Part shown: in pieces, positions 33,199-58,280 of the stretch | Layout of the letters: every line of letters begins with the position of its first letter | Numbering within the stretch: position 1 is the stretch's first letter | Assembly: GCF_014863605.1 (NCBI RefSeq) | Contig: NZ_CP062252.1 | Span: 310,001-374,000, forward strand | From: Pseudomonas allokribbensis | GTDB taxonomy: Bacteria; Pseudomonadota; Gammaproteobacteria; Pseudomonadales; Pseudomonadaceae | Direction of reading: 5' to 3' | DNA length: 64,000 bases | The notes under the pieces: generated by a model | Databases searched by the model: none | What the model saw: the letters and a program-made list of their open reading frames with translations, nothing else | What the model was told of the DNA's origin: nothing | Made by a program: the position numbers and the translations under genes

Positions 33199-33260
33199 CC
33201 AGAAACAACGAAGCCCCTGCATTTCTGCAGGGGCTTCGTTTTGTATGGTGCCGGCACCAG
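33199..33260. repeat. Outer attachment site: displaced tRNA-Thr 3' end plus terminator
   Basis: This 62-bp stretch matches 41103-41164 at 59 positions. It contains a terminator hairpin (33207-33240, AACGAAGCCCCTGCA / TGCAGGGGCTTCGTT) and, at 33246-33260, TGGTGCCGGCACCAG, the 3' end of tRNA-Thr(TGT) as it occurs at 58205. After 33260 the similarity to the tRNA stops. It marks the left boundary of the island. Confidence 0.7.
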
Positions 33261-33686
33261 ACGAACGGTATGTTTCGGGGAGGCTAGGTTTTCCGGGCGC
33301 ATGGATTTTGGTGGAAAACTCGGCGTACCCCAACCAGTAACTATAAATACATCAGCTAGTTGTGGCCTTAAGTGGAATCGAATCCGGATTCAGCAGCTAT
33401 CGGGACACTTGTACAATTTGTACGCAATTCGTTCAACGTCGGCTATGTGAGTCAAGTTTTCCAACTGCTATGGCGTCTGAGGCTTCACCGGCTTCCCATG
33501 AGGGGGGGGCTTCTGCCCCGAGAGGGCCAAATCTCTGGGTGACCGCCTTCCTCGCTAATGAAGGACGTGTCGCTACACTTGTTCGAGTGCCGAACGTCAC
33601 TTGGAGTAGTGGTGGCCTTATGCCTTTCATGACTAACACTCAGTATTTTCATACGTTATGCCGTCAAAAAAAGGCACGGCGGGCAT
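33261..33686. other. Left end of island unit 1, no gene recognised
   Basis: There is no frame with a credible RBS. A few short frames on both strands look spurious. The segment may hold att-site arms or decayed DNA. GC content falls visibly compared with the chromosome to the left. Confidence 0.5.
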
Positions 33687-34209
33687 ATGACGGAGGCTCA
33701 GATCAAGGAAGCGATCTCGAAGGAATTTCTTCGAATCCTCGCTAACGGGCACGGATATAAGGTTACGGAGCCCTCGCTTGACCATGGAGTGGACATGGTT
33801 GTCTGCCCTGTTCAGTGCGACACACTCCCCAAGGAGGGATGCGTTACCTTGACTCCCCTACAAGCCAGATTTTCAGCTCAAGGCAACCACATCTGCTGGA
33901 GTCACGGACGATGGCGATCAGATCAGGTTTGATCTCGAATCCAAGACCTATAATGATCTCGTCGCCAGACGTCCTCAGTTTTTAACCATGCACCTAATTC
34001 TTGTAGTGTTCGATTCAGCCCCACCGGACTGTATAGCCATAGACGAGTTCCAATTGTCAGTTGCTGGAAGTGCATACTGGTACCTACCAGATGAGGGGGT
34101 TAATGAGACCGAGAACGCGCACCAAATTAGGATTTCGATTCCGAAGGCCAATCGTCTTGGGCTCGGTTTCGTCCGATCTTGCTACGAGCAGCTGGGGATA
34201 GAGGTATGA
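33687..34209 (+). pseudogene. DUF4365-like gene broken by two frameshifts
   Basis: The N-terminal part is in one frame (MTEAQIKEAISKEFLRILAN, then GYKVTEPSLDHGVDMVV). From about 33815 the sense continues in a second frame (RHTPQGGMRYLDSP). From about 33860 it continues in a third (DFQLKATTSAGVTDDGDQIR through to YEQLGIEV at 34209). Joined, these give a protein of about 170 residues resembling DUF4365 proteins, which have a GVD...FQLKAT nuclease-like core and occur in defence loci. It ends in an ATGA overlap with the next gene. Confidence 0.65.
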
Positions 34210-34811
34210 GTCATAGATCTGAAGACCTGTCTATCCTCGCCGAAAAGCTCCAGACTTTTCTCACCGCCTCAGGATGGGTAGAAGGGCGTCAAACCAAGGG
34301 ACTTCGTTTTTTTTATCCGCCGGCTGCCCTTGGGATCGAGGGGAAGTACTCCATCGCGCTACCCGATGACTCATTCAAGCCTGGTGTAGATAGTCTTTTG
34401 CAGGCCGCTGCTGACTCTCTATTGGATTTGTATGGTTACAGTCGCTTCGGCGAAATGGTTGAGAGCGCCGTTTCAAATGCAGATTCAAGTCCTGCTCGTA
34501 TCTCATCACGATTCGTGGATTCGTCTACTCGCTGGGGTGCGATGCCGCTTTTGGCGTTTGGGGAATTTTTGACTCATATGGGAGCAGGGTTATATGAAAG
34601 CGTCAAATTTAAGCTGGGTGGGGATCATAACTATAATCGAGTAACAGCCAGTACTTTCGCAAACGAATGCCTTTTACTTCAAACAAAAGTCGGTAGTTTC
34701 ATTGCTAACATCGAGGTGCCAAGAACAACGCTCCGGCAAGCCGATTTGTTCGGGTATGAGGTGATTGACTCGAATAAAGTTTGTTCGTCATTATTTTCGG
34801 CTATTGAATGA
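34206..34811 (+). CDS. Hypothetical protein, probably the N-terminal part of a frameshifted gene
   Basis: 201 residues from an ATG overlapping the preceding stop. The middle (MGAGLYESVKFKLGGDHNYNRV, about residues 122-143) and the overall composition look like a soluble enzyme or structural domain, but I do not recognise it. The frame stops at 34811. The following frame continues without its own good start: changing ATTGAATGA to ATTAATGA near 34807 would join them into about 398 residues. Probably one gene with a 1-nt insertion. Confidence 0.55.
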   Translation: MSHRSEDLSILAEKLQTFLTASGWVEGRQTKGLRFFYPPAALGIEGKYSIALPDDSFKPGVDSLLQAAADSLLDLYGYSRFGEMVESAVSNADSSPARISSRFVDSSTRWGAMPLLAFGEFLTHMGAGLYESVKFKLGGDHNYNRVTASTFANECLLLQTKVGSFIANIEVPRTTLRQADLFGYEVIDSNKVCSSLFSAIE

Positions 34812-35397
34812 TCGAGTACTCAGCGATACACAGTCTTTATACACCGAAGAGTCAATGGCGGACGCCATTTCACTGCTTGATGTGGAACTGTTGGAAGACT
34901 TGCCGAAGATGATTTTAGGGCCTGGTATGGATACCATTGAGTTTTCTCTAGAAACAGGAGCCTCTATACGGACCTCTGCTGCCGGTTGGATTGCCGAAGA
35001 TAAGATTACACGATTAAGGGACTATGTCGCCTTTATTAAGGAGTACTTCCGTGGGGAACATAATATAACGGTGACTGGCTCCATAGTCGAGCTCCGCTCG
35101 TGCGACCCTGAAGGTAATAGGAACTATATCCGAGTAGTCGCAGACTTCCAGAGGGAACGAACTTTTATGGCTGCGATATTGACTAATGTACAGTATCAAC
35201 GTGCTGTAGATGCCTACCGTACCAAGCGATCGGTGACCATTCGCGGTAACGGAATGCGATTGACAACTCAGATTCCTATTGCAAACGTAGCTTATTTTAC
35301 TGCATGGCGCTGTTTCGCTGAGGCAGTCAATAAAAAGACTGCTTGTGCTGACTTCAAAAAATTAGCCACAAACCGTCAGGCGTTATGCCTCTGGTAA
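34765..35397 (+). CDS. Hypothetical protein, probable C-terminal part of the frameshifted gene
   Basis: Up to 210 residues. The first usable start is TTG at 34765 without an RBS, or ATG at 34855 also without one, which supports its being the continuation of the previous frame. The C-terminal half (residues about 100-180) has a beta-rich pattern with YQRAVDAYRTKRSVTIRGNG. No family was recognised. It is co-directional with the DUF4365-like remnant. Confidence 0.5.
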   Translation: MTRIKFVRHYFRLLNDRVLSDTQSLYTEESMADAISLLDVELLEDLPKMILGPGMDTIEFSLETGASIRTSAAGWIAEDKITRLRDYVAFIKEYFRGEHNITVTGSIVELRSCDPEGNRNYIRVVADFQRERTFMAAILTNVQYQRAVDAYRTKRSVTIRGNGMRLTTQIPIANVAYFTAWRCFAEAVNKKTACADFKKLATNRQALCLW

Positions 35398-35447
35398 TCT
35401 ATTCATAGTTAGTCATTAAATATAAAATGTTTTATTTGGTGAAATAA

Positions 35448-36260
35448 ATGCCTATACCAGTGAATACGCAATTGGCGGCGCTGCCGGCGATGCTTCCAGC
35501 GATGATCGCGGCGTACAACATACCAAACTCACGTACTGCTAATTACAATATTACATATGAAAGCTTTATTGTTGGCAGAACACAAGGGATTGCTACCCAT
35601 GGAAGCCTCGCAAACTGGATTAAAAATGGGAACGCCGCTGCGGAAATTCATAATCTATTGACCGCCTTTGGTATGAGCGCACAACGCTCGGTTCTCGTCG
35701 CTCTTCCGGTGCTACATGGGGTTCTAAATGGACTTCCTGCTGGAATCCTAAACTGGATACAAAATTTCTCACTTCCATTGCCAACATCGCCTTGCACCAT
35801 TATCAACTCCTCGACGCATTCTAATTTATCACTGGAGTTGCAAGAGCTCTTTAACGTTTTGGCCGCACCGGGCTCAGTGACCTTGAGCGGCGGTTTTGTT
35901 GCTGCAAGCAAGACATTACATTGCTTGTTTCCAGATTTGGCCCCGATGATTGATGGGAGACACTCTGGGCTCTCGTATTTTCACATATCCCGATCTACAT
36001 ATTTACCTCCACTCGGTTTGCGCACGTGGGATCAATGGAATGGCACTTTGCCTCGTGGCATACCAAATCCAAGTCCGCGGGGAGCCGGACGCACAAATTG
36101 GGACTCTGCAAGATTCGTTGCGGCTATAGGTATAAATCAGCATATTTATGAGATTTGGCTAAGTAACAACCATAATCAAAATCTGTGGGATTTTTTGGCA
36201 CTAGACTCTACGCGTGGGACGACCGGAATACCACGTATCGTGGACAAATTACTGTGGTAA
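35448..36260 (+). CDS. Hypothetical protein of unit 1
   Basis: A 270-residue protein, ATG 35448, with GGTG upstream as a weak RBS. A segment SKTLHCLFPDLAPMIDGRHSG (about residues 158-178, with the Lys, Pro and Asp spaced as in proteins that read K.L..L.P.L.P..D) resembles a motif in small uncharacterised DNA-glycosylase-like or DUF6308-like proteins (weak). There are no membrane segments. Base composition is AT-rich. It follows the DUF4365-like remnant and may belong to the same lost system. Confidence 0.55.
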   Translation: MPIPVNTQLAALPAMLPAMIAAYNIPNSRTANYNITYESFIVGRTQGIATHGSLANWIKNGNAAAEIHNLLTAFGMSAQRSVLVALPVLHGVLNGLPAGILNWIQNFSLPLPTSPCTIINSSTHSNLSLELQELFNVLAAPGSVTLSGGFVAASKTLHCLFPDLAPMIDGRHSGLSYFHISRSTYLPPLGLRTWDQWNGTLPRGIPNPSPRGAGRTNWDSARFVAAIGINQHIYEIWLSNNHNQNLWDFLALDSTRGTTGIPRIVDKLLW

Positions 36261-36431
36261 CGGGCTAACTATTTATTGCAGATGAGTTCTACGTAGAATC
36301 GGTGGTAAAGCTTGTTGCCGGTCATTAGCGAAAGACTTTTTTGGGAGGTCTGATTCGTTTCGCGCAGGCCGCAGCGGTTCGACCGTTCGCCAGCGGTAAA
36401 ATTAATCTCACAGGGTTGGCCAACTAAATAA

Positions 36432-36469
36432 CAAAAGCAACAAGGCGGGATTATCTTGGCCTTGTTGCT
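36432..36469 (-). terminator. Rho-independent terminator of the TIR/caspase operon
   Basis: The 11-bp stem AGCAACAAGGC / GCCTTGTTGCT (36436-36446 with 36459-36469) is followed by TTTTGTTA when read on the minus strand, 20 bases after the TIR gene stop. Confidence 0.7.
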
Positions 36470-36489
36470 ACTAAAATAGTCGCTTTTTT

Positions 36490-36981
36490 TTAATACCCTC
36501 GACGAATCTTCGTCTTGAGTTCCGAGTGAAATTTATCAGCGTTGCTCTTGTTTATTTTGTGGAGTGATTCGCTGCCCACGATCGATTCAAGGCTTATCGA
36601 GCGTTCGGAGATGAGTTCGCTTTTATAGGATTCGATGAATAAGTCGATATCTGTGGCCTTGGTCATTTTTGGCCACTTTTCAAGGTACTCGGGAAGCTCA
36701 GTTCCTCCAGTTTTGAAGGAGCAGATTCGTCGATTGCTGATTGTAGCCTCACCAATTTCAAATGGCACCCACCACGACAGTGCGGTTCTCTCCGAAACGA
36801 CGGCGAGCAAATGTGTGCATTGGGTGATGTTACGGGTAATAACAGCTGTGATGTCTTCGGTGGATTGAGATTCAGCATCCAATACGTCTAAGTAGGTATT
36901 GATGTTTGCTTTTTTCAGTCGACTGTTTATTTCTATGGCTTGGTCACGGTCGGTGTGGCGGTAACTGATAAATACAGGCAT
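36490..36981 (-). CDS. TIR-domain protein (putative immune signal generator)
   Basis: A 163-residue protein whose first ~130 residues are a TIR domain: strand A VFISYRHTDRD (3-13), DVLDAE (32-37), and SWWVPFEIGEA (69-79) with the probable catalytic glutamate E75. Bacterial TIR domains of this short type cleave NAD+ or make cyclic ADP-ribose signals. No other domain is present. It is last in an operon. Its ATG shares one base with the stop of the 320-aa caspase gene (TGATG), so the two are tightly coupled. Confidence 0.85.
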   Translation of the reverse strand: MPVFISYRHTDRDQAIEINSRLKKANINTYLDVLDAESQSTEDITAVITRNITQCTHLLAVVSERTALSWWVPFEIGEATISNRRICSFKTGGTELPEYLEKWPKMTKATDIDLFIESYKSELISERSISLESIVGSESLHKINKSNADKFHSELKTKIRRGY

Positions 36982-37943
36982 CAGAAATGTCCTTTGATTG
37001 CAAGTTCTCGGTAATAGGCTCCTAGGGCAGTGAGACGACAGCCGGTGGAGTTGATTGCGGCGTAATACATGTGGTCAGCGTTCACTGGCTCTATCAAGCT
37101 GTGGCGATTACATTTTTGCAACTGAGCGAAGACGTCGCCTTTGTCGGAGTTGAACACTGCGGTTTCAGTAGGTTCGTAACTAGGGTCTAAGGGGAACTCA
37201 AAGCTTGCATCGGGAAACCAGTCGGGTAGTTTGCGCAGTATTTCCTCGGAAATTAGAGGTGCGACTTCTCGCAACGCAATAAATTGCGATACGTTGGTTT
37301 TGAAGACGGGCCGCTGTTCCCATGCTCCAAGTGCATTGTCGACAAACGAGTAGACGCTGCCAGGCGTGACCTTGCCGAGAACGTTAGCAGCTCCCCCGTG
37401 TAAAGCCTGCAGAAGTAGGCCGGTGAATACGCCATGGCTGTTTTTCTCCAGCGCAGGCTCTGTTTTTTTGCAGGCTGTGAGGATAGTCACTCCTTCGCTC
37501 AACATGCTAGCTCCGCCCCTTAGAGCGCGACTATCTCCTGCACCACCGGCCTCGCAACAGTCCAGTATGATTATTTTGTTTTCAATCTGCGTGGCATCAT
37601 GTGCCCATTTCAAAATGTCGCTGACTCGTAGGCCGTCACCTCCCATTTTGTAGTCCTGCGGTATAAGCATCCCCTCATCAATATCCGTATCAAACTGACC
37701 ATGCCCGGCGAAATACAATAACGCGACATCGCATTTTCCAGAAAATAGACTACGAATATTGTCTTTGAGTAACGTCAGACTCACGTCCTCTTCAGCCGAG
37801 GTCAAAATTTTATTGCTGAAATTTGGTCGCCCACTGGAATGACGCTCCAGTACAGAAGCCATCGCCATAGCATCGTTGTTACAGCCACTGAGTTTGGAAA
37901 CATGGCTGTAGTTGTTTATTCCGACAAACAAGCCTTTGCGCAT
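36981..37943 (-). CDS. Caspase-family protease A
   Basis: A 320-residue peptidase C14-like protein. Residues about 1-225 form the caspase fold, with catalytic H81 (LLYFAGHGQ) and catalytic C130 (IILDCCEAGG). Residues about 226-320 form a separate C-terminal domain with HSLIEPVNADHMYYAAINS, which could be a ligand or target sensor. There is no signal peptide. The RBS is very strong (GGAGGGTGAG). It is directly upstream of the TIR gene, so it is probably the effector switched on by the TIR product (inference from reported TIR-caspase pairs). Confidence 0.88.
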   Translation of the reverse strand: MRKGLFVGINNYSHVSKLSGCNNDAMAMASVLERHSSGRPNFSNKILTSAEEDVSLTLLKDNIRSLFSGKCDVALLYFAGHGQFDTDIDEGMLIPQDYKMGGDGLRVSDILKWAHDATQIENKIIILDCCEAGGAGDSRALRGGASMLSEGVTILTACKKTEPALEKNSHGVFTGLLLQALHGGAANVLGKVTPGSVYSFVDNALGAWEQRPVFKTNVSQFIALREVAPLISEEILRKLPDWFPDASFEFPLDPSYEPTETAVFNSDKGDVFAQLQKCNRHSLIEPVNADHMYYAAINSTGCRLTALGAYYRELAIKGHF

Positions 37944-38051
37944 AGCTCACCCTCCTTGTGCGTACAAATTGAATCTAAAGTAACCTAAGCTATCGACAGC
38001 TTGTTAAAGGTCGCTTTACAAACCTAGAAACAGCTTCTCTTAGAAGAAGGT

Positions 38052-39494
38052 TTATTTTGCGAGATTAGTGCCAAATGGTATTAAGATGTTGGATGCTTCA
38101 TCAAAGTCGCTAGTAATGGTTAGCTGTGACTTTGGGATCATCATCTGCGTGGTAATCATTTTTACTAGGCTGTCGTATCTGATTGGGTGAGCGGTAATAT
38201 CTTCGTAGCTTTTGTTGAAAGTGAGATTAATGATATTGGTCCCTTCGAAAAAAATCCCAGTGATCAGTTGCTCGCCTGAGTCGAGCTGCTTCGATTTAAT
38301 GTCGATGCTGATCTGTCTGGGCTTTCCAGGTATGACATAAAATCGATTTTGGTACGTAATTAGCACATCTGATATAAGCTCAAAGCTAGAGGCAAGGGAC
38401 TCAATTTTTCGCAACTCAAAAAGCTGATCGAACTTTGATGTCTTAAATGTTTCTCTGATCTCACCTTTTGAATTGAAAAACACTTCAAATAGCATGCCGT
38501 CCAATATGGATTTTCTGTTTTTCTGGGAAAGCTCCGAAGTTTTGTTATTGAAATCAATTATGTAATTGATTGCGTCGTTCGCCGAGCCACATGCGGCTTG
38601 ATAGATATTTCTGCCCAAAACGAACAGCGTGTTTATATCCGATGATTCAAGCCTTTCCTTCGTGAGCTTAGCAATGGCAGGATTTTGAGTATACCAATTC
38701 CTGGATTTTAAGTCGCGAATACATTCAGCAATTAGTGTTCCAGCCTGAGGAGTGAACGTTGAGTCCGCGATAGCTGCTGCGCTATAGATTGTAAGTCGTC
38801 GCCCAGCGCTAATGTTAAAGAAAAAATCACCAGAAAGAGAAGTGTGCTCCCATGATGTCTGTTTGTTGGTCGTGGTGACGCTTAGCGTATTTCGAACTCG
38901 TTTGAAAAGATCTTCAACGGAAATGTCTAGGGTGTTGATGTGCTTAAGGAGCGCCTCGGTGTAACTTCCATTACGATTTGGACCGTCTGCGGCCACTTCG
39001 CCTGGCGACGTGGCAAATGCGATCAGCGTTCCTTTCGGAGTATATACCGAGGCCAGCCCAGACAATTCAGGCCCACGATTCCAAGCTCGCACAAAAGGGT
39101 TGTTGCGACATGCATCCAAAATTATCAAATTTGTTGGATTTGAACAGTCATCCATAACTTCGATAAGCCGATTCAAAGCAAACGATGTGTGTTTTACTGA
39201 AATTTCATCCGAAAAATTTGTATCGGTAGTAATTAGGTAGTTTTCGCCTTTTATTTGAATGCCGTGACCTGCAAAATAAAATAGCCCTACATCATTACTA
39301 TTAAGATTGTCCTTGAAATTTTGTATAGATCTATCTATATCTTCAGCTGTGCAATCAGTCTTTAATATTACTGAAAAATCCAGAGTTTCAAGTGCTGAGG
39401 CCATATCGATGGCGTCATGCGTAGCGTTAGCTAAAGCTCCACCGTTAGGGTAGTTTGAAATTCCAATTACAAGTGCCGTCAAACGCCGTTTCAT
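38052..39494 (-). CDS. Caspase-family protease B with long C-terminal domain
   Basis: A 480-residue protein. The caspase domain covers residues 1-235, with H77 (FYFAGHGIQ) and C129 (IILDACRNNPF), the DACRNNP form typical of bacterial orthocaspases. A helical linker follows, then an unknown, beta-rich C-terminal region of about 200 residues. It is AT-rich compared with the chromosome. It is the first gene of the three-gene run, 108 bases before caspase A. The RBS AAGGAAG precedes the ATG. Whether the two proteases act in series is unknown. Confidence 0.88.
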   Translation of the reverse strand: MKRRLTALVIGISNYPNGGALANATHDAIDMASALETLDFSVILKTDCTAEDIDRSIQNFKDNLNSNDVGLFYFAGHGIQIKGENYLITTDTNFSDEISVKHTSFALNRLIEVMDDCSNPTNLIILDACRNNPFVRAWNRGPELSGLASVYTPKGTLIAFATSPGEVAADGPNRNGSYTEALLKHINTLDISVEDLFKRVRNTLSVTTTNKQTSWEHTSLSGDFFFNISAGRRLTIYSAAAIADSTFTPQAGTLIAECIRDLKSRNWYTQNPAIAKLTKERLESSDINTLFVLGRNIYQAACGSANDAINYIIDFNNKTSELSQKNRKSILDGMLFEVFFNSKGEIRETFKTSKFDQLFELRKIESLASSFELISDVLITYQNRFYVIPGKPRQISIDIKSKQLDSGEQLITGIFFEGTNIINLTFNKSYEDITAHPIRYDSLVKMITTQMMIPKSQLTITSDFDEASNILIPFGTNLAK

Positions 39495-39552
39495 CCAGAT
39501 TCTTCCTTGATTGGGTGGAGCCGTTCTGCGAGATGCTACTATTTTGATATCA

Positions 39553-40008
39553 TTATGTGCAATGAATTGATAGGCTCATCCGCTTCACGTGTTCGCGGTC
39601 TTGGCCCTGCGGCACCGAGCAACGAACGCCCGTGCGCCGCGTTCCCAGCACCTTGCTCGGACTCAGTACTTTCACATGCTGATCACCACGAAGCGTGGCC
39701 ATGGTTCGGTCCACACTGGACAACCGGTTTTGAGCGGTGGCAATGGTGAGCTCACCTTGTTCAACTTGCTGGCGTAGATGTCCGGCGTAATCCAGCAAAG
39801 TCTGCCGATCAATCTGCCGCGCATCGTTAAACCCCGGCCCATCTTCCGAGTGACACCAGCGTACAAATGCCTGCCAGCGATCACTGTGCGCTTTGACTGT
39901 GCCGTAATGCCTTCCGCCAAATAGATCTCGCAATGCCTGTGGCCCGGCATAACTCAACTGCCGGCCATAGCCAAAATTTCGCCCGTCTCGTCTACCGACC
40001 AATGCCAT
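39553..40008 (-). pseudogene. Truncated integrase (N-terminal SAM-like part only)
   Basis: From ATG 40006-40008, with AGGAG 8 bases upstream, about 140 residues match the core-binding half of a Pseudomonas integrase-domain protein (MALVGRRDGRNFGYGRQL, later LLDYAGHLRQQVEQGE). After the VKR segment the frame runs into ten unrelated residues and stops. The whole catalytic domain (R-H-R-Y) is missing. It marks an old junction at about 39,590, next to the caspase operon. Confidence 0.75.
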
Positions 40009-40171
40009 GATCGAACTCCTCTCGAAGCAAACTCTTAAAACTTTCCCCACGTCATCCCGCCAAGAATGTTGAGTGTTATCAGGGATCAAGGCCCCTGCGA
40101 CCTGTGAGGGTTGTCCACTAACACCGGACTGGCGGCTCCTTACGACCGGGAGCTTGGGCATAATTCGCGGG

Positions 40172-41102: not shown

Positions 41103-41205
41103 CCAGAAACAACAAAGCCCCTGCATTTCTGCAGAGGCTTTGTTTTGTATGGTGCCGGCACCAGGAATCGAACCCGGGAGCTACTGATTACAAGCCGTTT
41201 GCTCT
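41103..41205. repeat. Middle attachment site: displaced tRNA-Thr 3' half plus terminator
   Basis: 41150-41205 matches tRNA-Thr positions 58205-58260 at 52 of 56 bases, from the CCA end to the anticodon stem. 41103-41164 matches the outer site 33199-33260 at 59 of 62 bases, including a terminator hairpin (AACAAAGCCCCTGCA / TGCAGAGGCTTTGTT). It is the left end of unit 2 and the right end of unit 1. Confidence 0.75.
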
Positions 41206-41320
41206 GAGGCTTCGTCCCGCTTCATCGAATCTCACAAGTTTTGCTCTGTCTAGTGTTTACATGGTCTGTAGCCAGTTTTGTGTCTTTCTATGTTTCACCT
41301 GTTAGCGTACCTTTGCATGA

Positions 41321-41344
41321 GAAACGGGGAACGGATGGGGAAAA
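41321..41344. repeat. Left copy of a 24-bp terminal repeat (integrase arm-site candidate)
   Basis: GAAACGGGGA-ACGGATGGGGAAAA lies just upstream of the integrase start. A copy, GAAACGGGGA-GCGAACGGGGAAAA, is at 58114-58137 near the other end of unit 2, in the same orientation (21 of 24 identical). Confidence 0.5.
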
Positions 41345-41354
41345 CGGGGAAAGA

Positions 41355-42797
41355 ATGGCTAAGCGTACGCGAATGACCGAGATGGAAGCCTATGCGGTAA
41401 AGACTCGTCAGTCGGAGCCGGTCGGCTCTCGCGGAAAGGGGACTTTGCTGCTCGAGCGTAAAGCTTCCGGAGCGATTCAGGCCTACTACCGGGAACGCAC
41501 CTCGGATAGCGACAAGCGGCTGCCTCTCGGGACGCTGGCGAAGAAGCCGCGTGTGGGTACAGACGAGCAAAGCTTGGATGGCATTCGCGCGCAGGCGATG
41601 CGCATTTCAGTTGAGGTCGCAGTTGCGGGCGGTATAGCGAAGTACTTGGAGAGCATATCTGAACAGCAGGCCGCGGCCGCGGCTAGTCGAGAAGCTGCGG
41701 CTGCAATTGAGGAAGCGGACCGGCTCGAGCGTCTACGCTTGGCGGAAATTGAGGCCTCCCGCGGAAGCTTTCACGATCTGTTTCAAGACTACATTGAATC
41801 CCGTCGGATCAAGGCAACACCAGGCGTCGTGAAGGAGTTAGAGCGTCTTCTCAAGACCAACATGCAGGAGCCTCACCCGGAGGTGATGAGGATGAAGGCT
41901 CGGGATATTAGGGCTGATCATATCCTCACCATCCTCAATCCGATTTGGGAGCGTGGCTCCAAAGTGCAGGCGGATCGTATGCGTTCGTTCTTGGTTGCGG
42001 CATTCAATCATGGGCTCACGGCGGAGAGCGTGGTCGGCCGCTCCAATGCGAAAATTTATAGTCTCGAAATCAACCCGGCAGCAATGGTAAAGGTCGATAA
42101 AGTCTCGGCTCCTGTCGAACGTTCATTATCTGACGCTGAGTTGAAGCGATTCTGGGATACGGTTGAGAGTACGGCCGGTATCGGTCCGGTTATGGGGCTG
42201 CTATTTAAATTTGTCATTTCGACTGGCGGCCAGCGTATCAAGAATCTGATCGAAACCACTTGGGCTGACTATGATCTGGACGCCGGTACGGTGCTATTAA
42301 TCCACCGCAAGGGAAGAGGAGGTCAGACCATGAGTCGGCCGCACCTCGTCCCGCTATCTGGCCGGGCCATTACCATCATGCGCCAAGTGCGGGAAATCAA
42401 TGGTGACCATTCCTGGCCCTGGACGACACATGGTAAACAGCCCTTCGTAATTAGCAGTCCTACTCATGCAGTAGCAGACTGGCTTGATTCCAAGCATTCC
42501 CTAATCGATGGTGTGAAGATCCCTGCATTCTCTCCAAGGGACCTGCGCCGGACCTGCACACAGCTTATGCAAAAGCACGGTGTTGACGATCGGTTGTCGG
42601 ATCTCCTTCAGGCTCATGGCCAGACAGGTGTTGTATCTCGGCACTACCGAAACAATCCTGAAGCGGCGCTGCCAGAGAAGCGTCGAGCAATCGAGCTATT
42701 CGACCAAGCATTGGCTAAAACGTTAGGAGAATCCAAAGGCGTCGGGAATGTACTTTCGATCTCGCGTCGGAAAAAGAAATCTAACTCAATGTCCTGA
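41355..42797 (+). CDS. Tyrosine-type site-specific integrase
   Basis: A 480-residue P4-like phage integrase. The N-terminal arm-binding/DUF4102-like region (RTRMTEMEAY, then GKGTLLLERKASGAIQAYYRE) and the core-binding domain lead to the catalytic domain. There, Arg I lies in TGGQRIKNL, Lys in the beta hairpin HRKGRGG, the R-x-x-R box in SPRDLRRTC (the usual His is Arg), His/Arg in QAHGQTG, and the nucleophilic Tyr in SRHYRNN. The ATG at 41355 has GGGGAAAG upstream. It lies 150 bases inside the middle att site, as expected for tRNA-targeted elements. Confidence 0.93.
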   Translation: MAKRTRMTEMEAYAVKTRQSEPVGSRGKGTLLLERKASGAIQAYYRERTSDSDKRLPLGTLAKKPRVGTDEQSLDGIRAQAMRISVEVAVAGGIAKYLESISEQQAAAAASREAAAAIEEADRLERLRLAEIEASRGSFHDLFQDYIESRRIKATPGVVKELERLLKTNMQEPHPEVMRMKARDIRADHILTILNPIWERGSKVQADRMRSFLVAAFNHGLTAESVVGRSNAKIYSLEINPAAMVKVDKVSAPVERSLSDAELKRFWDTVESTAGIGPVMGLLFKFVISTGGQRIKNLIETTWADYDLDAGTVLLIHRKGRGGQTMSRPHLVPLSGRAITIMRQVREINGDHSWPWTTHGKQPFVISSPTHAVADWLDSKHSLIDGVKIPAFSPRDLRRTCTQLMQKHGVDDRLSDLLQAHGQTGVVSRHYRNNPEAALPEKRRAIELFDQALAKTLGESKGVGNVLSISRRKKKSNSMS

Positions 42798-43055
42798 TGG
42801 CCCTACGACTGAAAGCCTTTTAGGCGGGATCAGCAGCCTGAGCCATCGTCAAAAGCGGCAGCTCAACGTCCAAATCGCTGCCAGTGAAGCTATAGGACAC
42901 CACCGTCAGTCCTCCGCCCATTCCCCAGAATACGCGGGGTGCAGCGATTTTCCGTTCCATAACTCTGGCTTAAAAGGCGCAGAAACTACGTATAAGTGGG
43001 AATAACAGCAAATAAGCGCAAATAAACAGGAAAACTGTTCATAACAGAGCTGAGC

Positions 43056-43112
43056 ACACTTTAAGTGTAAGTTTCCACTTTGAGTGGAAGTCCAGTCCGC
43101 ACACTTCAGTGT
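43056..43112. repeat. Three consecutive short palindromes (operator candidates)
   Basis: ACACTT-T-AAGTGT (43056-43068), TTCCACT-TTG-AGTGGAA (43073-43089) and ACACT-TC-AGTGT (43101-43112) share a (A/C)CACTT half-site. The spacing of about 19-25 bases suits cooperative dimer binding, for example by AlpA or a phage repressor. Confidence 0.5.
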
Positions 43113-43128
43113 CACCCTCTATCAAGGT

Positions 43129-43164
43129 CGCGACACGTTTTCGTAATTCTCAAAACGTGTCGCG
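43129..43164 (-). repeat. 36-bp palindromic element, copy 1
   Basis: The perfect arms CGCGACACGTTTT and AAAACGTGTCGCG enclose a 10-base spacer. A near-identical copy in the opposite orientation is at 50596-50631. Confidence 0.65.
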
Positions 43165-43579
43165 GCTGGTTAAACATTAGCGAAACTATGTATAAAAATT
43201 CTCAGCTACGAAAGGCGCATGATTTGTGCTAGGGACTATTGAGGGCCTCATCAGTCCCCATGAAGCCCCCGTGATTAGGGCATTTCGCCCTAATCCGACG
43301 AACGGTGCCTTCTTGCTTTTTGCCTTCTCATGAGTGCTCATGGGGGCTTATGAGTGCTGGTGGGACGCAGCGGTACAGTAAGTTTCGGCCAGAAAATGTC
43401 CGGGGATAAGAAGTTATGCAAAGTATGCAAAGGAGATTCAAAAAAAACAGGTTCTTTTTTTTGAAAAGCGCCGCTACCATGCGAACACGCCTACAGCGTT
43501 CTGTCGATGTATGAGACACCTTGAAAGTTGATTGTCTGGTGTTTGCTGACAGGATCGCTGACAGTTGGAATTGCAGACA

Positions 43580-43660
43580 AAGAAAAGCCCCTGGTCTTCG
43601 ACCTCCAGGGGCTGCTCGAGAAAGGACGTTGTAGCGTCCTCTGCATACCAGCTAGGCCAG
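43580..43660 (-). ncRNA. Candidate structured RNA with terminator (minus strand)
   Basis: Read on the minus strand, a small hairpin, AGGACG-CTACAA-CGTCCT, is followed by the strong stem AGCCCCTGG / CCAGGGGCT (43586-43613) and then TTTTCTTT. No convincing protein gene ends there. It could be a small RNA such as a counter-transcript regulator, or the terminator of a leftward leader. Confidence 0.35.
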
Positions 43661-43894
43661 CACACAACCCCGAGGGGAGAAGCGTTTGAGACGGCTTCAA
43701 TGGCTCTACCAGTTTACGGTTTACCGTAAAAGGTAAAGCTCGGGCGGACTGTAGTACCGGAGGGAATAATACGCTACTGGTTTCTTAACCAGTGGTACTG
43801 TTTCCGATGACTTGCCATCTTTTGACCTGTTCGCAGGTACTGGTGGTCTACAGATCGATCCTCTCGGTTTTTCCAGTCTTTGGAGATACCGCAA

Positions 43895-44113
43895 ATGGCA
43901 CAAACCGCCACCCGCATTACCGATGTTCCTAACCTCCCGATCCCCGGAGCACGTGCTACCGCAGCGCAGCTTTGCGCCAAGTACCAGGTCAGCCGCGCTA
44001 CTTGGTGGCGCTGGTCCAAGACTCCCGGTTTTCCCGCCCCGATTCGCTTCGGTCGCTCCGTCCGTTGGGAGCCTGAGTCTGTGGAATCCTTCCTGCTTAA
44101 CCAGGAGGCTTAA
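43895..44113 (+). CDS. AlpA-family transcriptional regulator / excisionase
   Basis: A 72-residue MerR-like winged helix protein of the AlpA family (TAAQLCAKYQVSRATWWRWS, then PIRFGRSVRWEPESVESFL). In P4-like satellites and cryptic prophages AlpA switches on the integrase/excision genes. The RBS TGGAG is 9 bases before ATG 43895. It begins the tightly packed early operon of unit 2. Confidence 0.85.
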   Translation: MAQTATRITDVPNLPIPGARATAAQLCAKYQVSRATWWRWSKTPGFPAPIRFGRSVRWEPESVESFLLNQEA

Positions 44114-44116
44114 TCC

Positions 44117-44284
44117 ATGATGACCAATCAACTCTGCGCTGGCGCGGGGACAGGTTCGCTTTGCCTGGAAAAAGCAGCTGTATCCCTTTCTGTACCCTTA
44201 AACGCATTGGTGCCCAATCGTTTTCTCGTTTGCCGCTCTCAACTCGTCGTTGCCGAAGTTAACGCTGACGATGGGGTGGCCTGA
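44117..44284 (+). CDS. Small hypothetical phage protein (55 aa)
   Basis: A 55-residue frame from ATG 44117, with AGGAGG 8 bases before it, ending one base before the next gene. Three cysteines lie in the first 40 residues (TNQLCAGAG, SLCLEK, LVCRSQ). No family was recognised. The excellent RBS and fit between neighbours support it as real. Confidence 0.6.
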   Translation: MMTNQLCAGAGTGSLCLEKAAVSLSVPLNALVPNRFLVCRSQLVVAEVNADDGVA

Positions 44285-44285
44285 C

Positions 44286-44585
44286 ATGGAAAAGATCCTT
44301 CCTTCCGAGATGAGTTGCTCAGCGCAAACCAATAACGACACCAGTGGGAGCGCCCAGCGCATGCGCCTCTTGGCGTATCTGAGCCAGCATGGCTCGATTA
44401 ATACCTTCCAAGCCATCGCGCTACTGAACATTTTGCGCCCGGGGGCGCGCATAGCTGAGTTGCGTGCGCAGGGGCATGGCATCGTTACCCACCTGAGTAC
44501 GCTGAAGGATGACCACGGTCGCGATCATCAGAAGGTTGCAACCTACTACCTGAGTGCTGGCCCTGTGCAGAAGGTGGCGTCATGA
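44286..44585 (+). CDS. Helix-turn-helix domain protein
   Basis: A 99-residue protein with a winged-helix core (RMRLLAYLSQHGSINTFQA, then RIAELRAQGHGIVTHL), the pattern of small phage helix-turn-helix proteins found near replication genes. It overlaps the Rha-like gene by 4 nt. It is probably a regulatory or replication-accessory DNA-binding protein. Confidence 0.75.
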   Translation: MEKILPSEMSCSAQTNNDTSGSAQRMRLLAYLSQHGSINTFQAIALLNILRPGARIAELRAQGHGIVTHLSTLKDDHGRDHQKVATYYLSAGPVQKVAS

Positions 44586-45100
44586 CGGCGAAGACCATCA
44601 AAACGACTGTTGAGAGTGATACGGGAAATCCCCGCATTATCCTCGCCGAGTATCAGGGCGAACCTCGCGTGGACAGCCGATTGCTTGCCGAGCAGTTGAA
44701 CAACAAACACAAGAACTCCATCGCGCTGATCGAGCGCTACCTGTTCAAGTTCAAAGAGTTCGGCTTGCTGGCGTTTCAAACGGAGGCAAGACCGGTGGGC
44801 CGGCATGGCGGTGGTGATGTTCGGTTTGCCCTGCTCAATGAGGATCAAGCATTCTTCCTGCTGTCGCTGTCACGCAACACGAACCGCGTCGTGGAACTGA
44901 AAGCGAGCCTCATCATGGCGTTTCGCGAAGCCCGCTATGGGCACGCCTCACAGACGCTGTTAGCCCGCAGGAACGAAGCCAGCATCAGTGGTCGCCGCCT
45001 GGCGCACTGGCGCTATGACAAACCAGGCGTGTACGCCCACGTCGCCCATCTGAGAGAACAACTGAAGCTGCCGATCGACGTGGAGGACTTGCGCCCATGA
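44582..45100 (+). CDS. Rha-family phage regulatory protein
   Basis: A 172-residue protein with the Rha/pRha N-terminal domain (RVDSRLLAEQLNNKHKNSIA through RHGGGDVRFALLNEDQAFFL and LKASLIMAFREAR). It lacks a clear antirepressor C-terminal domain. Rha proteins act in phage regulation. It overlaps neighbours on both sides (ATGA at each junction). Confidence 0.8.
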   Translation: MTAKTIKTTVESDTGNPRIILAEYQGEPRVDSRLLAEQLNNKHKNSIALIERYLFKFKEFGLLAFQTEARPVGRHGGGDVRFALLNEDQAFFLLSLSRNTNRVVELKASLIMAFREARYGHASQTLLARRNEASISGRRLAHWRYDKPGVYAHVAHLREQLKLPIDVEDLRP

Positions 45101-45582
45101 ACGCCTTGCTCATTATCGGGGATGAACAGTCGATAACTTTTCTTGCCAGCAGTCGCACCCGTCGGTATGGTTTGTCTGTCGCTGCAAATTCAGCGACCGA
45201 CCTTGGCGGGTCGAACAGTAAACGGCGCAACAGCGCCCCCATTACGATTGCAGGCGCTTTTTTTGCGCCCGCATTCTCGTGTTATGGCGGGTTGCGCAGG
45301 AGCACTCTCGGGTGCGCCGGGTTCCGTTTACCCCGGTCCGCCAATCCTGTGCAACTCGCCACCCTTCTCTGCTTGGCGGCAGTTAGGAGTGGCTCCAATG
45401 AAGTAAACGGAGCTACATCAATGAAATACGCCCTCATTCCGTCCGCAATTCGCGCCCTTGCTCACCGCCGAATGGCCTTGAGCGCTCTCCGCGCAAACTC
45501 GTCCCTTTCTGTTCGACTCGCCCGCTACAACACTCACATGACCATCGTCCGCACATTGGAAACCTCAGGGGGCGTTCAATGA
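45097..45582 (+). CDS. Ash-family protein with embedded structured RNA
   Basis: A 161-residue protein of the Ash family found in P4-type satellites. The middle (residues about 50-95: GAFFAPAFSCYGGLRRSTLG then FRLPRSANPVQ) is the conserved stretch, and it is read from DNA that also folds as a C4-like antisense RNA. It overlaps the previous and next genes by 4 nt. It could equally be mainly a carrier of the RNA. In P1/P4 this locus works in immunity and control of host cell division. Confidence 0.75.
   Translation: MNALLIIGDEQSITFLASSRTRRYGLSVAANSATDLGGSNSKRRNSAPITIAGAFFAPAFSCYGGLRRSTLGCAGFRLPRSANPVQLATLLCLAAVRSGSNEVNGATSMKYALIPSAIRALAHRRMALSALRANSSLSVRLARYNTHMTIVRTLETSGGVQ
45285..45361 (+). 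ncRNA. C4-type antisense RNA (P4/P1 immunity RNA)
   Basis: A long closing stem, GGCGGGTTGCGCAGGA (45286-45301) with TCCTGTGCAACTCGCC (45345-45360), encloses two hairpins, GCAC-TCTCGG-GTGC and CCGGG-TTCCGTTTAC-CCCGG. This three-way junction and the sequence style match the C4 RNA of phages P1/P7 and the CI RNA of P4, which shut down the early operon by antisense pairing. It lies inside the ash gene. Confidence 0.65.
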
Positions 45583-45824
45583 GCCAGCCAATCGCTCGCC
45601 TCGCCGACGAAGCCCTTGAGCTGCTGCGCGCCACACACGAACGCATCAGCAATATGCGGGTGTTGTTCAACGCGATCACAAAGGACCTGAAGCACGGCAA
45701 GTCGCACGATATCGAAGAGCTGGCCAGCCTTGGCAGCTTCCTCGGGTACGACTGGGCGAACTATGTCGACAGCGAAGTCGAACAGATGCAGAAGGCGCTG
45801 GATGCCGCGGAGGTGGCCAAATGA
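45579..45824 (+). CDS. Hypothetical phage/satellite protein
   Basis: An 81-residue, mostly helical, acidic protein. LADEALELLRATHERISNMR suggests a coiled-coil N-terminus. It overlaps ash and the next gene by 4 nt on each side, so it belongs to the early operon. Family not recognised. Confidence 0.65.
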   Translation: MSQPIARLADEALELLRATHERISNMRVLFNAITKDLKHGKSHDIEELASLGSFLGYDWANYVDSEVEQMQKALDAAEVAK

Positions 45825-46153
45825 GCGCCTCTATCCGATCACGGGAGCACCTGAGCTTCACGAAGCGCGATCCTGAAGGGCGACTGATCAACTGGCCTCG
45901 GAACAATCCCGGTGTAGCGGCTGACTGGCAGAAGGGTATCGAGTTCTTTGAAGGCGAAGTATTCGAGTTAGCCACCCACGATGAAACCGAAGCGTTCAAC
46001 GCTATTCAATTTGCCATTGCCGGAATGGGCGGGCGCACCACCAATCTTGAAATCGGATTTATAGAACGCGTGGCACGTGCTGCGGTGCTTGGTTTGCGCG
46101 TGATTCGCGGCGGCGCAGCACGGTTCGAACCCAAAGACTTCGAAGAGATTTAA
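45821..46153 (+). CDS. Hypothetical phage/satellite protein
   Basis: A 110-residue soluble protein with RDPEGRLINWPRNNPGVAAD at about 17-36 and a C-terminal half predicted as helices plus a strand. There are no known motifs. It is translationally coupled to its upstream neighbour and three bases from the next start. Confidence 0.65.
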   Translation: MSASIRSREHLSFTKRDPEGRLINWPRNNPGVAADWQKGIEFFEGEVFELATHDETEAFNAIQFAIAGMGGRTTNLEIGFIERVARAAVLGLRVIRGGAARFEPKDFEEI

Positions 46154-46156
46154 AAC

Positions 46157-46444
46157 ATGAAAATTCAAAACGGCGCATTTGCGTCGACGGGATCGGCTTG
46201 CCCAAAGAAAGCCTGCGAATTGTTTTACGTCACGCATCCAAAGGTGCCCAAGGCATTGTTGGGACCGTTCTTGACCGAGGCCGACGCTGAGTGCGGGCGC
46301 TTTGTTATGCGCAGTGCTGACGCTCAGGTAACGGCCCGCCTGGTTGACTCAATCGACGACATCACCCACTGGCACGGCGTGAACAACGGCCAGGTTTGCC
46401 GGGCCTTTGCTGGCGCTGATCGACAGGAGGTCAGCCATGGGTGA
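46157..46444 (+). CDS. Hypothetical phage/satellite protein
   Basis: A 95-residue protein with three cysteines and one histidine-rich patch (DITHWHGVNNGQVC). It overlaps the next gene by 8 bases. Family not recognised. It is part of the same operon. Confidence 0.6.
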   Translation: MKIQNGAFASTGSACPKKACELFYVTHPKVPKALLGPFLTEADAECGRFVMRSADAQVTARLVDSIDDITHWHGVNNGQVCRAFAGADRQEVSHG

Positions 46445-46664
46445 CGTGACCCCAATCAATCGCAAGAGCAGTGGCGGCCCACCCGCTGCTGGCGCTCATA
46501 TCGACAGCGCCAGCTATGTGCTGCTGGTGGAAACGCTGGTCGGCTTTCTGGAACTGCGAATCTCGGAAGGCGACCAAGGCCGTCACTGCGATGAGCTTGA
46601 GCGCCTGACTCAGAAACTGGAGAGTTTGGCCAAGCGGTTTACCCCGCCGAAGGGGGCCGCATGA
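46437..46664 (+). CDS. Hypothetical small phage protein
   Basis: 75 residues from ATG 46437 with a perfect AGGAGG RBS. It is helical and acidic (VLLVETLVGFLELRISEGDQ). It overlaps the primase start by 4 nt and could be a primase accessory factor by position only. Confidence 0.6.
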   Translation: MGDVTPINRKSSGGPPAAGAHIDSASYVLLVETLVGFLELRISEGDQGRHCDELERLTQKLESLAKRFTPPKGAA

Positions 46665-47542
46665 CTGACGCAACCATCCAGTTCCGTGATGCCCTTCAGG
46701 CCGTCTACGGTTTGCTCGATTGGATGCCAGAACCTGATGGCCACATTCACCGGTTCCACGTGCCTGAGGATAAGCCCGGCTCCCTCAACGGCTGGTATGT
46801 GCTGTACCTGGACGGCATTGCATCCGGCGCATTCGGCAGTTGGAAGGCGGGCAGCGCCAGCACTTGGTGTAGTCGTGAACCGGTGGACGCCCGCGAAGCA
46901 ACCCAGATCCGCGAGCGGGTTGAGCAGGCCCGGCGCCAGCGCGAAGCCGAGCAACACCGGCGCCAGCAGCAGGCCGCCGAGAAGGCCAATCACTGGTGGC
47001 GCAATGCGCGCCGCGCCTCACCCGACCATCCGTATCTGGTGGCGAAGGGCGTTCGCTCCTACGGCTTGCGCCAGCGTGGGGCTGAACTGCTCGTTCCGCT
47101 GTACCTGGACGGTCAGTTGATCAACCTGCAACGCATTGCACCGGACGGCGGCAAGCGCTTCCTGTTCGGCGGCCGGATCAAAGGCACCTATTCGCCGCTG
47201 GGCATCATCGAGCCAGGTTCTGTGCTTTGCATCTGCGAAGGGTGGGCGACCGCCGCCAGCCTTCACCAGCACGGTGGCTATGTCGTGGCGGCAGCCATGA
47301 ACGCCGGCAACTTGATCCCGGCGGCGATGGCCCTTCGCGCTCGCTACCCGGGCCAGCCAATCGTCATCGCCGGCGACGACGACCGGCTCACCGATGGCAA
47401 CCCGGGGCGCGCAGCGGCAAACGCAGCGGCGGCGGCCGTGGGTGGCCAAGTGGCTTTCCCTGAGTGGCCGGAAGGCGCCCCCGATGACCTCACTGATTTC
47501 AACGACCTCGCCAACTGGAAGCTCGCCCATGTCCAAGCCTGA
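46661..47542 (+). CDS. Toprim-domain primase
   Basis: A 293-residue DNA primase-like protein. An N-terminal zinc-ribbon-like region (about 1-75) and a charged helix (80-115) precede PYLVAKGVRSYGLRQRG, the P4 alpha/DnaG-type core. The Toprim domain has E193 (ICEGWATAAS) and D239-D240-D241 (VIAGDDDR). It makes primers for the element's replication together with the DUF927 helicase-like protein encoded next, which it overlaps by 14 bases. Confidence 0.85.
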   Translation: MTDATIQFRDALQAVYGLLDWMPEPDGHIHRFHVPEDKPGSLNGWYVLYLDGIASGAFGSWKAGSASTWCSREPVDAREATQIRERVEQARRQREAEQHRRQQQAAEKANHWWRNARRASPDHPYLVAKGVRSYGLRQRGAELLVPLYLDGQLINLQRIAPDGGKRFLFGGRIKGTYSPLGIIEPGSVLCICEGWATAASLHQHGGYVVAAAMNAGNLIPAAMALRARYPGQPIVIAGDDDRLTDGNPGRAAANAAAAAVGGQVAFPEWPEGAPDDLTDFNDLANWKLAHVQA

Positions 47543-49331
47543 CACCAACGTGATCAACCTTCGGCCGGACGCCGCGACCATTGCGCCAGATCGCCCCTGC
47601 TGGGCGGTGTATGAGCATTGGGTAATCAACGAGAAGGGCCGCAAGCTTCGTCCCGGCGTTTACTGGCATAGCTTCAAGCGCGCTGCCGCTGACCAGGACG
47701 ACGCCGAGAGCGATACCGGCGACCGGCCTATCACCGATGAGTGGATCTCCAGCCCCGTTACAGTCGTGGCCCGCACCACCAATAGCGACGACGGCAGCGA
47801 GGGTCGGTTGCTGCGCCTGGTCACAGATGGCGGCATCAAGGAATGGATCATCGCCATGGAAGTGTTCGGCGGCAGCGGCGAGGACGCACGGCGCGCCTTG
47901 TTCGGGATGGGCGTCATCATTGCCCTGAAGAAGCGCGGCACGTTCATGGAGTACCTGCTCGACCAGCATCCTGCAGAAGTGTTCGCCACCACCAACCGGC
48001 CGGGTTGGCATGAATCGGGCGCGTTCGTGCTGCCCGGGAGGACGATCGGCAGCGACAAAGTGCGATACCAGGCCAGCAACAAGGCGCAGGTTCTTTTCAG
48101 CCGCCGCGGTGAGCTGGCGCTGTGGCAATCGGAGGTGGCTGCCAAGTGCGCAGGCAATCCGGTGCTGACGCTGGCGATCGGCTGCTCGCTGGCCGGCCCG
48201 CTGCTAAGTCTGGTCGGCGTGCTGGGTGGAGGCGTTCACCTGGTGGGCGACAGCTCGAGCGGCAAGTCCTTGGCGCAGTTGATCGGCTCGTCGGTGTGGG
48301 GTGACCCGGGCGTCTTCGCCGCCAGTTGGGACATGACCAAGGGCGGCCTTGAGATCGAGGCGTCGAGCCGAAACGACACCATCCTGCCGCTAGATGAGAT
48401 TAAGCGCGCCGACCCGAAGCGGGTACAGGAAATGGCCTATTCCCTCGCCAACGGCCAAGGCAAAGGCACCATGACCCGCGAGCGTGAAGGCCGCGCCAAA
48501 TTGAGCTGGCGCCTGCTGACCCTTTCCAGCGGCGAGCGCTCGCTCTCCGAGCACGCCGCCATTTCCGGCAATGCCGCCCACGCTGGCGCCGAGCTGCGCA
48601 TGGTCGACGTGAATGCCGGCACCCGCACGCATCGAGCCTTTGACGAGTTGCATGGGCTGGAGGGCGCGGACTTTCACCGGCAGCTCACCGTCGCGGTGGG
48701 TGCCCACCATGGCCACCTAGGACCGGCCTTTGTCGAGCGATTGGTCGCGACCGACGACAAGCCGGGCTTGCTCAGTGACTTCGACGGCATCCGCGCTCAG
48801 TTCGTCGAGGACAACGCCCAGGCCGGCCGTGTGGCTGACCGGTTCGCCGTGATCGCGCTGGCCGGCGAGATGGCCATCGCCTACGGACTGCTCCCGTGGG
48901 AGCCGGGTACCGCCCTCGCCGACTGCCGCCTTCTATACGGCGAATGGCTCTCCCGTGTCGGCGGAGGGAATGCCGAAGACCGCCAGATCCTGGCCGGCAT
49001 CATCGACTTTATCGACAAGCACGGCAGCAGCCGTTTCTCGGACGTGGACGCACCTGAGGCGGACACCAAGGTTTTCAACCGCGCCGGGTACTGGGAGGTG
49101 ATCGCCAACAAGCGACTGTTCTTGTTCAACAAGTCCGCGCTCATCGAAGCCGCTCACGGGTTCGGCCTCACTCGCGTAATCAAGGCATTGGAGGTTGGCG
49201 GAGCGCTGGCTAAGCGCGACACCGATCGAGATAGCCGAAAGACCAAAAAGTACCGCATCCCCGCCGGCGGATCTGCTCGGATGTACGTCATCGACCCGGA
49301 AGCTCTGGACGGCGAAGGCGGTGCCTCATGA
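47529..49331 (+). CDS. DUF927-domain replication helicase-like ATPase
   Basis: A 600-residue protein of the DUF927 family. Residues 1-130 are an accessory domain. The ATPase core has Walker A GDSSSGKS (240-247) and Walker B-like ILPLDEI (285-291), with conserved GERSLSEHA further on. A winged-helix C-terminus (about 510-600) ends the protein. DUF927 proteins pair with Toprim primases in integrative elements and act as the replicative helicase (inference from context). The ATG at 47529 lies inside the primase end. Confidence 0.85.
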   Translation: MSKPDTNVINLRPDAATIAPDRPCWAVYEHWVINEKGRKLRPGVYWHSFKRAAADQDDAESDTGDRPITDEWISSPVTVVARTTNSDDGSEGRLLRLVTDGGIKEWIIAMEVFGGSGEDARRALFGMGVIIALKKRGTFMEYLLDQHPAEVFATTNRPGWHESGAFVLPGRTIGSDKVRYQASNKAQVLFSRRGELALWQSEVAAKCAGNPVLTLAIGCSLAGPLLSLVGVLGGGVHLVGDSSSGKSLAQLIGSSVWGDPGVFAASWDMTKGGLEIEASSRNDTILPLDEIKRADPKRVQEMAYSLANGQGKGTMTREREGRAKLSWRLLTLSSGERSLSEHAAISGNAAHAGAELRMVDVNAGTRTHRAFDELHGLEGADFHRQLTVAVGAHHGHLGPAFVERLVATDDKPGLLSDFDGIRAQFVEDNAQAGRVADRFAVIALAGEMAIAYGLLPWEPGTALADCRLLYGEWLSRVGGGNAEDRQILAGIIDFIDKHGSSRFSDVDAPEADTKVFNRAGYWEVIANKRLFLFNKSALIEAAHGFGLTRVIKALEVGGALAKRDTDRDSRKTKKYRIPAGGSARMYVIDPEALDGEGGAS

Positions 49332-49377
49332 CCCCCTCCACCAGAGACGAGTGCCCGACTTCACAGGAACCTACAAA

Positions 49378-49612
49378 CGTGGGGAACAGGGGGAACGGGG
49401 GAACGGCCAGCAAATACGCGGCCTGTAGCCATTCCCCTTTATTGAGTGTTTGGGGAACAGGGGGAACACAAACATGCTTTTGAATATAAGCGAATGCCGC
49501 TCCCCTGCCGTTTGGTTATCACTGTTCCCCACAAAAAAGCGTGGGGTACGGAATCCCCCTCTGAAAGGCCCGGAATCACTAGGTGTTCCCACTGTTCCCC
49601 CGTTCCCCCGTT
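49378..49612. repeat. Inverted clusters of GGGGAAC repeats, origin candidate
   Basis: Direct copies of G4-5AAC occur at 49381, 49389, 49397, 49452 and 49460. Inverted copies (GTTCCC to GTTCCCCC) occur at 49524, 49585, 49594 and 49602. The 16-base string at 49389-49404 is a perfect reverse complement of 49594-49609. The cluster directly follows the primase/helicase genes and has no gene inside. Confidence 0.6.
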
Positions 49613-49664
49613 TTTTTTCTACAGACACATATGGGCAATGGAGCAAATCGAGGGAGGCGACGAC

Positions 49665-50584: not shown

Positions 50585-50595
50585 AAACCCAATTA

Positions 50596-50631
50596 CGCGA
50601 CACGTGTTGCGAATCACGAAAACGTGTCGCG
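50596..50631 (+). repeat. 36-bp palindromic element, copy 2
   Basis: The arms CGCGACACGTGTT and AAAACGTGTCGCG (12 of 13 paired) enclose a 10-base spacer. As a whole it matches the reverse complement of 43129-43164 at about 33 of 36 positions. Confidence 0.65.
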
Positions 50632-50695
50632 ACACGGAGCAACACAACCGGGCATCAGCCCATCAATGGCGCCAAGGCGCCGAAGGAGGCAACAC

Positions 50696-51046: not shown

Positions 51047-51049
51047 GAA

Positions 51050-51649: not shown

Positions 51650-51717
51650 AGCGGTTATTGGGCTTTCAGCGAGCGCATGCTAGCGTCACGGCTTTATCAG
51701 TTACGGATGACGCCACC

Positions 51718-58204: not shown

Positions 58205-58280
<76 letters not shown>

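Follow-up and report, generated by a model that had tools for sequence, protein, structure and literature searches.

Three co-oriented genes of Pseudomonas allokribbensis, here called A, B and T2, are best read as two neighbouring anti-phage units on a single mobile island, a reading to which we assign a probability of about 0.6. One unit would be A alone, a MALT1-like caspase-family protein with an unnamed C-terminal module, and the other would be B-T2, a Thoeris operon that lacks its upstream TIR gene, T1. We favour two units because none of the 19 other A loci, which lie in varied mobile settings, has a separate B, T1 or T2 in its available flanks, and because A is absent from all 43 other Pseudomonas B-T2 loci examined. 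With both sets of loci separate, A as a regular third Thoeris component was set aside as the leading view. Judging from sequence, what appears to be new here is a variant TIR-caspase locus, T1-less and with A upstream, together with an undescribed domain in A; for A or B-T2, a role in anti-phage defence is what we infer.

Three genes on the minus strand

The genes lie in a 64,000-nucleotide stretch of DNA, referred to as the window, within a single-contig genome of 6.57 Mb. An earlier note on this DNA had proposed three minus-strand genes of 480, 320 and 163 aa with defined catalytic residues, a strong ribosome-binding site ahead of the second gene and a one-base overlap of the last two, all of which was borne out (Table 1). 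The Shine-Dalgarno sequence ahead of B, AAGGAGGG, was read at 37957-37950, and base 36981 is common to the stop of B and the start of T2. In the lists of 120 homologues each for A and B, drawn from the best 8000 candidates scored, H77 of A is kept in 118 (the other two being gaps) and C129 in 120, while H81 of B is found in 119, C130 in 118 and the neighbouring C129 in 120. E75 of T2 is present in 120/120 homologues listed. Peptidase_C14 of Pfam matches A at E=4e-36 and B at 6e-15, the two being distantly alike (33% over the caspase part), and T2 matches TIR_2 at 6e-12 and ThsB_TIR at 9e-6. A consensus scan of the A-B gap lists neither a promoter nor a terminator, the region's site count being no higher than in shuffles, so that one transcript may span all three genes.

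Table 1. Features of the A-B-T2 locus and of the surrounding tRNA-Thr island
Feature	Position in window	Strand	Basis or remark
Gene A, MALT1-like caspase-family protein with unnamed C-terminal module, 480 aa	38052-39494	-	
Caspase domain of A, residues 6-225, H77/C129	38820..39479	-	
C-terminal module of A, residues 240-480 (W-x-x-QN ... GRNxxQA..G), common to PIN_8 proteins	38055..38777	-	hhalign, alignment
A-B gap, 108 nt	37944..38051	-	contains strong Shine-Dalgarno
Gene B, caspase-like protease of the TIR-caspase (type IV Thoeris) kind, H81/C130, 320 aa	36981-37943	-	
Gene T2, TIR protein, E75, 163 aa	36490-36981	-	
tRNA-Thr(TGT), integration site	58205-58280	-	ARAGORN
56-nt copy (93%) of tRNA-Thr 3' end, proposed border of two tandem elements	41150-41205	+	
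15-nt exact copy of tRNA-Thr 3' end, proposed distal end of the A-B-T2 element	33246-33260	+	
Tyrosine integrase of neighbouring element (41.2-58.2 kb)	41241..42797	+	PF00589
Probable Integrase_1-type integrase remnant, just upstream of A	39553..40161	-	

Gene A in other genomes

Full-length A is rare, being present in 3 of 398 Pseudomonas genomes, namely those of the window, Pseudomonas baetica (G105) and G412 (47%); the other matches among the 398 cover one half of the protein only. A class scan yielded matches at E<=1e-20 in 16 of 369 genomes, full length in the window's own and in G640 (60%) and limited to the caspase half in the rest. The co-occurrence of the two caspases, which the earlier note had named as a condition for refutation, did not support a single system: B adjoins A in two of the three Pseudomonas genomes with full-length A, the window's and G105, but the two are apart in the remaining 19 A loci and 43 B-T2 loci. 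In those 19, a B query matched just A's own caspase part. Note that the flanks are short on one side in some of them (e.g., L022, L119 and L120), that L060 is broken and that L118 and L227 carry the same gene (99.4%).

In four of these loci, A directly follows an integrase. Three are close relatives: two related viral contigs (L118 and L119) and a prophage-like element of E. coli, located at tRNA-Arg (L227), where A sits directly 3' of the integrase and is followed by opposite-strand genes, none of them annotated as a nuclease. The fourth is an Agrobacterium plasmid (L058), which also has qatA and, on the opposite strand beside A, a further caspase-family gene (L058:7474-9594). Another caspase-family gene stands near a PIN-type gene in L151 (8480-10378); neighbouring caspases are thus not unique to the window. 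In G412 (L145), one flank of A has the Gabija genes GajA and GajB and a PDC-S64 gene nearby, and the other flank a Cap4-nuclease gene; in viral contig L226, as judged from N-terminal sequences, A probably lies directly before Gabija-like genes.

The C-terminal module of A

The predicted structure of A supports a caspase fold with a His-Cys dyad in its MALT1-like first half, and that of T2 a TIR fold with the catalytic glutamate kept. Structure-search matches for the A model fall within residues 1-231; beyond them, residues 229-384 are helical, with pLDDT blocks mostly at 80-96, and strands occur in 395-473. For the roughly 240 C-terminal residues, Pfam and PADLOC models gave no match at E<=1. 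The same module ends a set of nuclease-like proteins of Pseudomonas and Bacteroidales (L030-L034, L025, L026 and L138) that belong to PIN_8 (PF18476), whose C-termini align with it at an hhalign probability of 100 (E=2e-44). These proteins differ from A in their N-terminal half, a PIN-like nuclease domain where A has a protease, and fusion of the module to a PIN-type nuclease domain is therefore present in other bacteria. In addition, a ~530-aa protein of G949 (L144/L153), which is without a Pfam match, has a partial copy of the module after a different N-terminal part.

In viral contigs, the module was found at seven loci, with a caspase N-terminus in 7/7. Searches of phage records returned nothing matching the C-terminal part of A or the E. 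coli/viral-contig form of A. The module was detected in 2 of 299 genomes of a phylum scan, one of them the window's own, and in 1 of 322 genomes of an order scan, again the window's own, with room in both scans for divergent forms. Among literature titles and abstract openings, on which most papers were judged, none dealt with a module common to caspases and PIN proteins. By sequence profiles, the module would thus count as an undescribed domain, the fold of which may be a known one. As PIN_8 proteins have it too, the module may be a portable trigger that can be coupled to interchangeable killers. In the A unit, the module would act as a sensor or oligomerization switch: a phage-made signal would meet it and turn on the caspase half, which would then cleave host proteins and stop the infected cell.

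B and T2 without T1

The relatives of B and T2 usually have a different upstream partner. T2 matches of at least 60% identity occur at 46 places, spread over 45 of the 398 Pseudomonas genomes; counting every match at E<=1e-3, 84 of 398 are hit. The regions of 43 places were examined, the other three being the window, contig C141 of P. baetica (L146) and a contig end (G307). In 43/43, B lies immediately before T2 and the two share one base. Just upstream of B lies T1, a gene of ~135 aa that matches ThsB_TIR (PF08937) at E=6e-15; it is full length in 38 of the 43, partial in one and without a match in four, and in the 39 loci that have it, B starts 9-10 nt past T1 residue 134. This upstream position is occupied by A in the window. 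The usual operon therefore has a further TIR gene, missing in the window, of which the earlier note was unaware.

At these loci (L154-L156 and L159-L198), T1-B-T2 places two different TIR genes on either side of one caspase, at apparently one chromosomal place, the neighbours of which look, from their N-terminal sequences, like rsgA and motB. Other species have T2-like TIR genes without B beside the same kind of neighbours. Among literature titles and abstract openings, none concerned a two-TIR caspase operon, a layout that the primary type IV Thoeris paper may already describe.

A T1 query gave no match at E<=1 in the window's genome, while the same query matches the other loci. A T1 remnant within the A-B gap was ruled out by blastn against the collected loci, which returned the window's own copies and P. 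baetica and elsewhere just 13-17 nt hits. The B tree joins the window's protein to a metagenome protein, P0003 (100/98). Both belong to a nine-row set (100/98), otherwise made up of database proteins without gene context, and this set lies, together with all 43 loci, in a Pseudomonas group of 55 rows (100/99). The four other loci without T1 sit in two places of the tree. As the window's B is nested among the T1-B-T2 loci of Pseudomonas, the absence of T1 is most simply explained as a loss.

More distant relatives of B were found in 68 plasmid records, of which we viewed 11, at 43-48% identity. A small gene directly precedes the caspase in 11/11, annotated as TIR in 10 and as hypothetical in one (H41), and a downstream TIR is annotated in two. 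The Pseudomonas T1 query (tblastn) hits one of them, L139, at 46%, the sameness of the upstream gene and T1 in the remaining loci resting on place, size and annotation. Subject to this reservation, the core appears to be T1-B, and T2 an addition. Two enterobacterial TIR-caspase loci (L063:5985-6167 and L230:2582-2794) carry an extra caspase C-terminal piece right after B, at 48% and 54% identity. The PDB holds no sequence relative of B at E<=0.01. In the B-T2 unit, a derived type IV Thoeris operon without the usual upstream T1, the NAD-derived signal that activates B would be supplied by T2 alone.

The tRNA-Thr island and its relatives

The earlier note placed the genes in a tRNA-linked island, and we can refine this to two tandem elements at tRNA-Thr. 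With copies of the tRNA-Thr 3' end at the two positions given in Table 1, we read the island as an element of 41.2-58.2 kb with its own integrase, followed by a distal element of 33.2-41.2 kb with A-B-T2. The second of the two integrase-like genes, just upstream of A, has no Pfam match of its own, but its P. baetica counterpart (385 aa; 86% identity over 195 aa) matches PF12835 at E=5e-6, and we take the gene upstream of A for a probable integrase remnant. A itself probably arrived with an integrase-bearing element. Judging from sequence, the neighbouring element (41241-58205) also has primase/helicase-like ORFs. No support was found for the DUF4365 gene that the earlier note had placed in the island, the 81-aa ORF at 33687-33932 returning nothing from Pfam at E<=0.01.

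Homologues keeping the gene order, a search for which the earlier note had suggested, do exist, although the usual operon is T1-B-T2 without A. P. baetica has A, B and T2 together, and its sequence aligns with the window at 92.9% over 33284-40149 and at 83.5% over 58205-61966, from the tRNA outward. Its A and T2 are open and 98.5% and 98% identical in protein to those of the window, and its B is in two reading-frame pieces. A is under purifying selection (dN/dS 0.07 between the two, with 28 synonymous and 7 non-synonymous changes); dN/dS is 0.03 and 0.16 for the pieces of B, and 0.28 for T2 on only 4+4 changes. Two further TIR/ThsB-type genes adjoin A-B-T2 in P. baetica (L146:7631-8155 and L146:10316-11281), whose element may be a small defence island.

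The third case comes from metagenomes. Clusters of A (P0243, 90%), B (P0003, 88%) and T2 (P0124, 80%) each comprise 10 contigs, with the same longest length of 7318 bases and the same source, from which we infer contigs carrying all three genes. A-B-T2 is thus an arrangement of a single lineage, observed in two cases and inferred in a third, and its linkage has apparently outlived 10-20% protein divergence, if the metagenome case is as it seems.

Comparison with known systems

Type IV Thoeris was reportedly described by Rousset et al. in 2025 as a TIR protein plus a caspase-like protease, with N7-cADPR as the signal. B-T2 is of this kind as judged by gene content: a TIR gene and a caspase-like protease gene adjoin in one operon, with the caspase dyad and the TIR catalytic glutamate present, and the plasmid relatives of B directly follow an annotated TIR gene in 10 of the 11 loci viewed. 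The window differs in having no match to the upstream ThsB-type TIR, so that just the downstream T2 is left, and in having a second, distantly related caspase upstream. That T1 lies directly upstream of B is an observation among the Pseudomonas relatives, a layout that the window lacks and that is not known to us as part of the published definition of type IV Thoeris. The mechanism of type IV Thoeris is covered in the available text of PMC12847820, and the system also figures in that of PMC13373217; other background is found in the available parts of PMC8195603 and PMC7159879.

In the available text of PMC12799240, the Canu system is one in which CanA, a caspase with an Ig-like domain, activates the pro-nuclease CanC. 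A resembles CanA as a MALT1-like caspase in a defence setting, but its residues 229-384 are predicted to be helical rather than Ig-like, and the genes that follow it are B and T2 rather than a partner pro-nuclease, on which grounds A was ruled out as Canu. The caspase domain of the EACC1-associated caspases (NCBIfam NF047832) aligns with both A and B, which score 65.5 and 90.8 bits against a cut-off of 140.

Alternative readings of the locus

The earlier note's description of a Thoeris-type TIR-caspase locus with an extra caspase, the C-terminal part of which was unknown, stands; its view of both caspases as parts of one system fared less well. Such a three-gene system, with A replacing T1 as the input, seems to us rather doubtful. 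In one variant, A senses infection through its module and in turn acts on either B or T2; in another, a single signal made by T2 would drive A and B as alternative effectors. The two-unit reading is weakened, and the single system gains, because A, B and T2 have been kept together in the window, P. baetica and, apparently, the metagenome cluster, and because A and B are co-oriented with no terminator pattern between them; A moreover stands upstream of B where other loci have T1, B of the window and P0003 are sisters in the tree, and A and the B pieces are under purifying selection. Since the linkage outlived such divergence, a joint protease pathway of A and B is possible. What speaks against one system is the absence of B and TIR genes from the 19 other A loci, the 108-nt A-B gap as compared with the T1-B spacing in the 39 loci with T1, the differing GC contents (A, 41.6%; B, 49.5%; T2, 45.3%) and a broken B beside an open A in P. 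baetica. A bolder version, which we regard as improbable, takes the module to be an undescribed infection sensor mounted on different killers (a MALT1-like caspase, a PIN-type nuclease and possibly a third architecture), and its caspase form, in this Pseudomonas clade, to have taken the place of the signalling TIR in a type IV Thoeris operon, so that the two caspases would form an initiator-executioner pathway amplified by a TIR.

The opposite view, that B-T2 is a decaying relic minus its signalling TIR and that just A still works, would explain the lack of a T1 match in the window's genome, the broken B frame of P. baetica next to a second T1-B-T2 locus with full-length matches elsewhere in that genome (L184), and, in the window, the two ORFs that correspond to a 378-aa P. 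baetica ORF and the shortened integrase. We hold it to be quite improbable, as neither B nor T2 of the window is truncated or has lost a catalytic residue, B-T2 without a T1 match is maintained in 4 of the 43 other loci, and the dN/dS values of the B pieces are low (that of T2 resting on few changes). Least probable by far is a T2 that serves B as a regulator or phage sensor and makes no signal, which another TIR of the genome would provide instead. Two observations are consistent with such a role: 9 of the 11 plasmid loci have an annotated TIR-caspase pair but no annotated TIR after it, and 18 of 20 lower-identity loci have T2-like genes but neither B nor T1. The invariant E75 of the listed T2 homologues argues against it, as does, within the search for T1, the lack of a T1 relative in the window's genome.

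Implications

If the module of A is a sensor, it would offer a handle on how bacterial paracaspases get switched on, and swapping domains between its caspase and PIN versions would cleanly test sensor versus killer. As for Thoeris, the Pseudomonas TIR-caspase operon often has two TIR genes, and one natural lineage has the downstream TIR only, so that experiments can directly address how the two TIRs share the work.
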